From Pseudofrankia saprophytica (GTDB taxonomy: Bacteria; Actinomycetota; Actinomycetes; Frankiales; Frankiaceae): a DNA stretch of 64,000 nucleotides. The DNA is taken from assembly GCF_000235425.2 (NCBI RefSeq), contig NZ_KI912266.1, positions 5,143,217-5,207,216 of the forward strand. The letters are read 5' to 3'. Under the pieces are notes generated by a model. That model ran no database searches and was not told the origin of the DNA. It saw only the letters and a program-made list of their open reading frames with translations. The position numbers and the translations under genes were made by a program. This document shows positions 1 to 3,000 of the stretch, piece after piece; positions within the stretch are counted from its first letter, which is position 1, and the number at the start of each line of letters is the position of its first letter.

Positions 1-3000
1 CGGGTGACGACGGTGGCGAGCGCCTCGGGCGTGCGATGGCCGAACAGCAGGCGCGGGGTGACGGTGAGGCCGGCGGCGCGGATCCGGTTGACCAGCCGCA
101 TCGCGACGATGCTGTCGCCGCCCAGGGCGAAGAAGTCGTCGTCGACGCCGACCTCGTCGACCCCGAGCACCGCGGCGAACGTCGCGACCAGGGTCGCCTC
201 GATCTCGTTCGCGGGCGCGCGCCCGGCCACCGGCTCGTCGACGTCACCGGCGGGCCGCGTCGGCGGGTCCTCGTCCGGCGGGTCCTCGTCCGGCCGGTCG
301 ACGACGTCCAGCGTGCCGTCCGGGCGCCGGCGGGCCCGACCGCCGGTCCGGTTCGTCCACTCGTCCGGGCCGCCGATGTCCAGCACGCTGACCGGTATTT
401 GCTGGTCGGCCGCGACCGCGGCGAGGACGCGCAGCAGCCGCTCGCCGAACCGCTCGGCGGTGGCGCGGTCGAACAGGTCGTCGCTGTAGCGGACACCGAC
501 GGCCATGCCGTCGTCGGTGCTGGTCCGCTCGAGGAAGTCGAAGGACAGGTCGAACTTGGCACTCGCGGTCCTGACCGGCTCGGGGCTGGCGCCCACGCCG
601 TCGAAGGCCAGCTCGTCGACGGCGTCGGACGCCGCCAGGTACACGATCATGACCTGGAACAGCGGGTGGCGGGCCAGCAGCCGTGGCGGGTTGACGGCGT
701 CGACCACCCGGTCGAACGGCAGCTCCTGGTGGTCGAACGCGGCGAGGTCGCTGGCGCGGACCCGCCCCAGCAGCTCGCCGAACGTCGGGGCGCCCGACAG
801 GTCGGTCCGCAGCACGACCGTGTTGAGGAAGAAGCCGACGAGGTCGTCGAGGGTGTCGTCGACCCGGCCGGAGACCGGGCTGCCGATCGGGATGTCCTCG
901 CCCGCGCCCACCCGGTGCAGCAGGGTCGCGACGACGGCCCGCAGCACCATGAACAGGCTGGCGTTGTGGGCTCGGCCGACGGCCCGCAGCGCGGCGACGC
1001 GCTCGGCGTCGATCGACAGCTCGACGATCCCGCCGGTGTGGGTCGGCTCGTCCGGGCGCGGCCGGTCGGTCGGCAGCGCCAGCTCGGCGGGCAGGCCGGC
1101 GAGCTGGCGGCGCCAGAACTCCCGCGACGTGGCGGCGGGGCTCGTCGCGTCCGCCTCGTCGCCGAGCAGCTCGCGCTGCCACAGCGTGTAGTCGACGTAC
1201 TGAACGGGCAGCGGCGCCCAGTCCGGCGCCCCGCCCGCGGCCCGCGCCCGGTAGGCGGCCGTCAGGTCCCGGGCCAGCGGCCGGTCGGAGCCCTCGTCGG
1301 CGGCGATGTGGTGGATCAGGAACTGGGCGATGTGCAGGTCCGGGGAGCACCGGACGACGGTCACCCGCATCGGCGGCTCGCGCTCCAGGTCGAACGCGTA
1401 GGACGCGGCGTCGGCGAGGACGTCCGCCAGCCCCGGGTCGCCCGGCTCCGGATCGGGCCTGCCGGCGCCGGCCACCGACGCCCACTCGACGACGTCGAAC
1501 GGGATCTCCGTGTCGGACGGGTCGAGGATCCACTGGACCGGCTCGCCGCCGGGCGCGGGGAAGACGGTCCGCAGCGCCTCGTGCCTGGCGACGACGTCGC
1601 CCACCGCCGCGCGCAGGGCGGCCAGGTCCAGCGGCCCGGTCAGCCGCCAGGTGATCGGGATGTTGTATGTCGGGCTGGGGCCCTCCACCTGCCCGAGCAC
1701 CCAGAGGCGCTGCTGCGCGAACGACAGCGGCGGGTTCACCGGGCGCCGCGCGCGGCCGACGGCCGGCCGGGCGGCGCCGGCCTGGTCCATCCGCCGCGCG
1801 AGCCGGGCGACCGTCGGGTCCTCGAAGACCGCGCGCGGCGTGATCTCCACGCCGAACGTCGACCGGATCGCGGCGCACAGCCGCATGACGAGCAGCGAGT
1901 GGCCGCCGAGGGCGAAGAAGTCGGCGTCGGTCCCGACCCGCCGGACGCCGAGGACGGCGGCGAACCGTTCGGCGAGCAGCTCCTCGCGCGCGTCACGGGG
2001 CCGGCGGCCGGCCGCCGGCACGGGCGCGGGCGGCCCGGGCAGCGCGGCCCGGTCCACCTTGCCGTTGACCGTCCGGGGCAGGCGGTCCAGCGCGACGAAC
2101 GCCTGGGGAACCATGTAGGCCGGCAGGATCCGGGCCACCTGCGCCCGAACGGCCTCGACCAGGCCCGACCCGGCCGGCAAGCCCGGCCCGGTGGGGTCGG
2201 GTACCAGGTAGGCGATGAGCTGGAGGGCGGGCGGGGCGTCCGGCCGGAACCAGACCGCCGCCTGGGCGACGCCCGGCGCCGCCTCCAGCGCCCGTTCGAT
2301 CTCGCCGAGCTCGATCCGGAACCCGCGCAGCTTGATCTGGTCGTCGGCACGCCCGAGGAACGCGAGCGAGCCGTCGGGGCGGCGGCGCGCGAGGTCCCCG
2401 GTGCGGTACATGCGCTCCCCCGCCGCGCCGTACGGGTCGGCGACGAACCGGGCCGCTGTCAGGCCCGCGCGGCGCAGGTAGCCCCGGGCGAGCCCGGGAC
2501 CGGACAGGTACAGCTCGCCGGCGACCCCGTCGGGGACCGGGCGCAGCGCCGCGTCCAGGAGGTAGGCGCCGGTGTTCCCGATGGGCGCGGCCCAGCCCGC
2601 GCTGTGCCAGCCGTAGGCGTCGACGGAGTACTCGGTCGGCCCGTAAAGGTCGTGGGCCACCGTCCCCGGCAGCGAGCGCAGCCGCTCCCACAGCGCCGGC
2701 GGGGTGGCCTCGCCGCCGACCAGGAGCACGCCCGGCCGGTGGCCCTCCGGCCGCAGGAACCCGTTCCTGATCAGTTCCTGGAGGTAGGTCGGGGTCAGGT
2801 CGAGCACGTCGATCCGGGTCCGCTCGACGTAGTCGACGAGGGCGGCCGCGTCCCGCGCGACCCGCTCGTCGACGACGTGCGTCTCATGCCCGGCCAGCAG
2901 CCACAGCAGCGGCTCCCAGGAGCCGTCGAAGCTGAACGAGGCCGCGTGCAGGACGCGCTGGGCACCCCGGTCGGGACCGGCGGCGCGCTCGGCCTGCGCG

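Follow-up and report, generated by a model that had tools for sequence, protein, structure and literature searches.

A module of a nonribosomal peptide synthetase (NRPS) that holds a condensation (C) and a carrier (T) domain, with no adenylation (A) domain between them, raises the question of how its carrier obtains an amino acid. Such a module lies at the left end of the DNA analyzed here, a window of 64,000 nucleotides from Pseudofrankia saprophytica (G000:C1:5143217-5207216, so that a window coordinate equals the G000:C1 position minus 5143216). The NRPS reading frame, located at 18401..3 on the minus strand, is open for 6133 codons up to the left window edge, and its terminal module comprises the condensation domain C5 (381..1781, minus strand), the translation of which preserves the HHIAADE motif, the C5-T5 linker with the first T helix at the usual place of an A domain (171..380, minus strand), and the carrier domain T5 (3..170, minus strand), which bears GGDSI. 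The real spacer ahead of the first T helix (ANEIE...) measures about 55 residues and is far too short for an A domain, which takes about 500. The minus-strand translation bears out the initial annotation, which had recognized here a C-T module without an A domain, a linker of about 60 residues with a DEDPP repeat and GGDSI on the carrier: the C and T domains both carry their catalytic motifs and the A domain is missing. The linker sequence is unconserved across nine relatives, the linkers of the relatives having about 34–56 residues of unrelated sequence, and the DEDPP repeat is private to the source genome when set against them.

Directly left of the window edge, a 100-N assembly gap (G000:C1:5143117-5143216, window -99..0) splits T5 from the rest of the module in the G000 assembly. 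Past the gap, the minus strand reads TPALQ...LLLIIHHALIDGVSW..., an E domain with the HHALIDG motif (window -1570..-101, minus strand), followed by a stop, so that the NRPS ends with ...VSDGAH. The terminal module is C-T-E and closes the NRPS protein. The initial annotation had suspected an E domain beyond the edge and proposed extending the sequence leftward; the extension reached the E domain and the stop, with no A domain after T5, one of the two findings that it had named as speaking against an A-less module, and no thioesterase was found at the NRPS end after the E domain.

The module terminates what appears to be the assembly line of a siderophore. The preceding module carries A4 (2100..3539, minus strand; code DGWDLGLVDK), the cis partner of T4 at 1824-1955. 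Upstream of the NRPS frame, a salicyl/DHB-AMP ligase (18440..19933, minus strand; TIGR02275, E 9e-176, below the curated cut-off), which presumably loads the aryl carrier domain in trans, lies next to a protein of the order salicylate synthase, carrier domain, condensation/cyclization, A and T (20113..25422, minus strand; TIGR03494). Since the first NRPS protein includes the salicylate synthase and has the DHB/salicyl-AMP ligase as its neighbor, a salicylate cap would start the siderophore. Iron-uptake genes in the neighboring window encode FecCD, a periplasmic binding protein and ABC transporters. As the NRPS has no thioesterase, chain release might fall to an alpha/beta hydrolase encoded nearby (window 45414-46295, minus strand). 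About 40 kb rightward, from window 63589-64000 (minus strand) on to 74879, past the right edge, stands another set of NRPS genes, which includes an E domain and no fewer than three A domains, with an Acetyltransf_8 gene at G000:C1:5218394.

The initial annotation had proposed that an A domain in trans may load T5 and that the genome be searched for a free-standing one. This search identified P0002, a free-standing A domain of 589 aa without a T domain of its own (window -8381..-6612, minus strand), 6.6 kb left of the window. P0002 retains the A3, A5, A7, A8 and A10 motifs, and at its N terminus a C-A linker appears to end, with N29-D30 invariant, as though the domain had been cut out of a module. 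The source would be a different NRPS module, of N5-acyl-N5-hydroxyornithine type. The cluster contains seven T and seven A domains; T5 is the sole T without an A and P0002 the sole A without a T, the remaining pairs being the aryl carrier domain with its own ligase, and T1–T4 and the T of the salicylate-synthase protein with their cis A domains. Among 18 genomes, orthologues of P0002 (74–89% identical) were detected in 12/12 with the A-less module and in 0/6 with a cis A domain, a count that does not represent 18 independent trials, as the loss of the one A and the gain of the other are effectively one evolutionary event with one origin. G022 retains the orthologue too, although there it has been relocated to a site upstream of the NRPS, within the same contig. 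All free A domains fall into a single clade (100/100). Identities between pairs of them track those between the C5 domains (r 0.94, 0/5000 permutations), although both also follow the species. The possibility that the cis A domain itself moved out to become P0002 was rejected, because the codes differ (DVWIVGAVNK or DVFIVGAVNK in the cis A of the orthologous module) and P0002 falls, at a great distance from the cis A, among same-code A domains from other actinobacteria.

From these sequence comparisons, we consider it probable that the NRPS of a salicylate-capped siderophore lost the A domain of its terminal module by deletion and that T5 is now charged in trans by P0002, most likely with graminine in G000. 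In such a working, P0002 would adenylate an amino acid and charge T5, probably assisted by MbtH; C5 would then couple the upstream peptide to the T5-bound residue, and the E domain would invert that residue to the D form.

The nature of the residue was approached through the specificity code and the precursor genes. Aligned to a GrsA fragment, P0002 shows the ten specificity residues DINYWGGIGK, which recur in every orthologue examined. We take DINYWGGIGK to be a formyl-hydroxyornithine code on three grounds. The first is the coelichelin precedent, a literature search for the code strings having given no match. The second is the gene neighbors, since A domains with this code sit beside a formyltransferase in Williamsia, two Mycobacterium, Pseudonocardia humida and Microbacterium. 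The third is that ChmO, a published graminine A domain, was also predicted for N-hydroxyformyl ornithine (PMC11085572). A P0002-code A domain in Streptantibioticus adjoins homologues of GrbD and GrbE, and since genomes of both precursor types share one code, the code cannot tell graminine from formyl-hydroxyornithine, the side chains of which, N(OH)-NO and N(OH)-CHO, are near-isosteric. The precursor genes of G000 are P0004, a GrbE-like YqcI/YcgG protein fused to MbtH (window -2874..-1738, minus strand), and P0003, an A fragment joined to a GrbD-like (SznF-like diiron-cupin) enzyme (window -4806..-2968, G000:C1:5138410-5140248, minus strand); thus, the GrbE-like and GrbD-like genes stand side by side with the NRPS, as in a graminine cluster. 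The formyltransferase and Orn hydroxylase of an N5-formyl-N5-hydroxyornithine cluster are both absent from the G000 siderophore cluster. Based on the code, the GrbD/GrbE-like pair and the lack of a cluster formyltransferase, graminine is the likeliest residue on T5 in G000.

Of the 18 genomes, nine carry the gene for the GrbE-like N-hydroxylase without a cluster formyltransferase, eight carry the formyltransferase without the GrbE gene, and G027 has both, the cluster-type formyltransferase being found in G004, G008, G020, G021, G023, G024, G026, G029 and G027. A strict either/or of the two genes was rejected on account of G027, and graminine as the constant partner of P0002 was rejected on account of G008 and G023, which have a formyltransferase and no GrbE, keep the P0002 orthologue, and likely use N5-formyl-N5-hydroxyornithine. 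Whether P0002 may charge T5 with N5-hydroxyornithine or its formyl derivative in G000 too, with graminine placed elsewhere in the peptide or unused, was therefore weighed as an alternative. P0002 does group with A domains near formyltransferase or ornithine hydroxylase genes, G008 and G023 do keep it with no GrbE, and G000 has one strong Lys/Orn hydroxylase, at 6124011; against this, the cluster has neither the cluster-type formyltransferase nor the Orn hydroxylase, and A2, the GrbD-linked A domain that would be the other candidate graminine loader, is only a fragment in G000, so we regard this alternative as somewhat doubtful. That hydroxylase (G000:C1:6124011) is the only strong one of the genome and is located outside the cluster, while the relatives have an ornithine hydroxylase in theirs. 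A3 (DMWNMGLIN-, with a methyltransferase-like insert) resembles a hydroxyornithine module.

In several relatives, A2 is a second A domain with the code of P0002 that sits with GrbD, so the role of P0002 could differ there. A2 and the Streptantibioticus A domain from the GrbD/GrbE cluster fall together in the tree (98/98). Among the genomes, A2 forms an apparent decay series, from A2-T-GrbD in one frame (G002, G027, G031 and G032), through A2 without a detected T (G001, G003 and G022), to an A6-A8 fragment on GrbD (G000, G005 and G006). The in-frame A fragment of P0003 (A6-A8, about 80 aa) aligns over the full length of the A-domain chain (77 residues) in PDB 6eby, where an MbtH-like chain is also present, and has a dN/dS of 0.5–0.8, above its neighbors; it might dock MbtH and thereby link GrbE with GrbD, or represent decay. 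Returning to P0002 as the loader of T5, we tentatively suggest that one free A domain of constant code lets two near-isosteric iron ligands alternate at the same siderophore position, a formyl hydroxamate made by formyltransferase and ornithine hydroxylase or a diazeniumdiolate made by GrbD/GrbE, with only the precursor genes swapped and the assembly line unchanged.

Another A domain of the assembly line, such as A4, might instead charge T5 in addition to its own T. This has an established precedent in capreomycin, where CmnA-A1 serves CmnI (PMC12400406), and A4 is the nearest A domain. Such sharing would leave P0002 without a carrier in the cluster, and would leave unexplained why every A-less genome retains P0002 and no cis-A genome has it, and we hold it to be unlikely.

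A further alternative is that C5-T5-E does not elongate: the assembly line may skip it, or, as the initial annotation had also suggested, the module may release, cyclise or transfer the chain. Terminal modules sometimes release by cyclisation, and the thioesterase is absent after this NRPS. In G029, G020, G026 and G004, however, the orthologous C5 is followed by a full A domain and then by the orthologous T and E, and in G021 and G024 an A domain is likewise present, behind a more distant C5. C5 is 72–93% identical among A-less relatives and 62–75% identical to that of the relatives with cis A. The dN/dS values of C5 (about 0.3), T5, E and P0002 lie between 0.2 and 0.5, mostly 0.2–0.4, suggesting that all of them are under purifying selection. 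A release or cyclisation module, very improbable in our estimate, is thus contradicted by the orthology of C5, T5 and E to an ordinary C-A-T-E elongation module, by the retained active-site motifs and by the purifying selection; C5 also does not stand as a terminal cyclising C domain, since T5 and E come after it. The trees of C5, E and C+T+E place the A-less modules in one group adjoining G029, within a grade of cis-A modules. It is most likely that the A domain was lost once from a C-A-T-E ancestor within the Frankia family, a single loss being the simplest reading and not a proven one because the branch uniting the A-less set is moderately supported (59% bootstrap, 98% SH-aLRT).

A trace of that loss was recognized by sequence in the linker of G000, which keeps 30 residues of the lost A domain, from its A7-A8 region (285..374, minus strand). 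Compared with 30-odd A domains, this piece aligned best, at a local score of 77, with the A domain that G020/G026 have in the same module; 0/2500 shuffles reached this score, the maximum being 70. The idea that every linker contains such a relic was rejected, for it is clear in G000 only: the trace is weak in G005, where 28/200 shuffles scored as high, and none was found in the other linkers tested.

Assembly deletion was the other finding that the initial annotation had named as speaking against an A-less module. A search of 58 genomes found C5, linker and T5 in one piece in nine others (G001, G002, G005, G006, G008, G022, G023, G031 and G032; 70–90% identical), each with the whole C-T-E module, A-less and without a gap; G001 and G002 are single-contig genomes, and in G003 and G027 the A-less module is partial, cut by contig ends. 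In N-free relatives, T5 is followed by about 45 residues of low-complexity T-E linker and then by E, which indicates that the gap in G000 hides such a linker and no A domain. An assembly error, in which an A domain was lost at the 100-N gap at the window edge or collapsed as a repeat, is for practical purposes ruled out by the gap-free A-less junction of these nine genomes, two of them single-contig.

Modules lacking an A domain and loaded in trans are already established (PMC7539972, PMC12400406), the siderophore setting, the relic and the precursor swap being new here. The WS9326A synthetase of Streptomyces calvus has an A-less C-PCP module, Cal19, with the trans A domains Cal22 and Cal23 (PMC7539972). 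It resembles the G000 cluster in having an A-less C-T module within an NRPS, an A domain encoded downstream and an MbtH-like protein, but differs in that Cal22 and Cal23 activate Thr and Asn, the Cal22 frame includes a PCP and Cal19 has a further module (PMC7539972). In G000, by contrast, P0002 lacks a T domain and has a hydroxyornithine/graminine-type code, the C-T-E module is the last of its NRPS, and its origin can be read from cis-A relatives and an A relic. Capreomycin CmnI is likewise A-less and charged by an A domain encoded elsewhere; CmnA-A1, however, belongs to another module and acts iteratively (PMC12400406), whereas the G000 candidate is a dedicated free-standing A domain. The gramibactin family and chalkophomycin (GrbD/GrbE or ChmM/ChmN) share with G000 the YqcI/YcgG and GrbD/SznF-like diiron-cupin enzymes beside the NRPS, and graminine biosynthesis is established (PMC6771848), but their graminine A domains, as described, lie in cis within the NRPS (PMC6771848, PMC11085572), while the candidate loader of G000 is free-standing.

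The cluster of G008 is split over contigs C2 (468328-487852) and C9, with its front half, consisting of an Orn hydroxylase, MbtH, an A/T protein, a ligase-like A and the formyltransferase, and the NRPS with the A-less module on separate contigs. The frankobactin cluster of Frankia sp. CH37, reportedly the work of Mohr et al. 2021, is similar as a Frankia metallophore NRPS and in being split in two places like that of G008, a likeness drawn by description only. It has been described as bipartite (PMC12701797). A search of the literature other than the primary frankobactin paper found no account of an A-less module with a free A domain in the Frankia family.

Trans-loaded A-less modules are usually met only as finished products. 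Here, relatives with the ancestral C-A-T-E form, a scrap of the A domain and a traceable replacement gene would make a natural swap of an A domain from cis to trans readable step by step, which may be relevant to NRPS engineering, where trans A domains offer a convenient route to residue change. For the Frankia family, some members of which are nitrogen-fixing symbionts of plants, the analysis predicts a salicylate-capped and probably graminine-containing siderophore.
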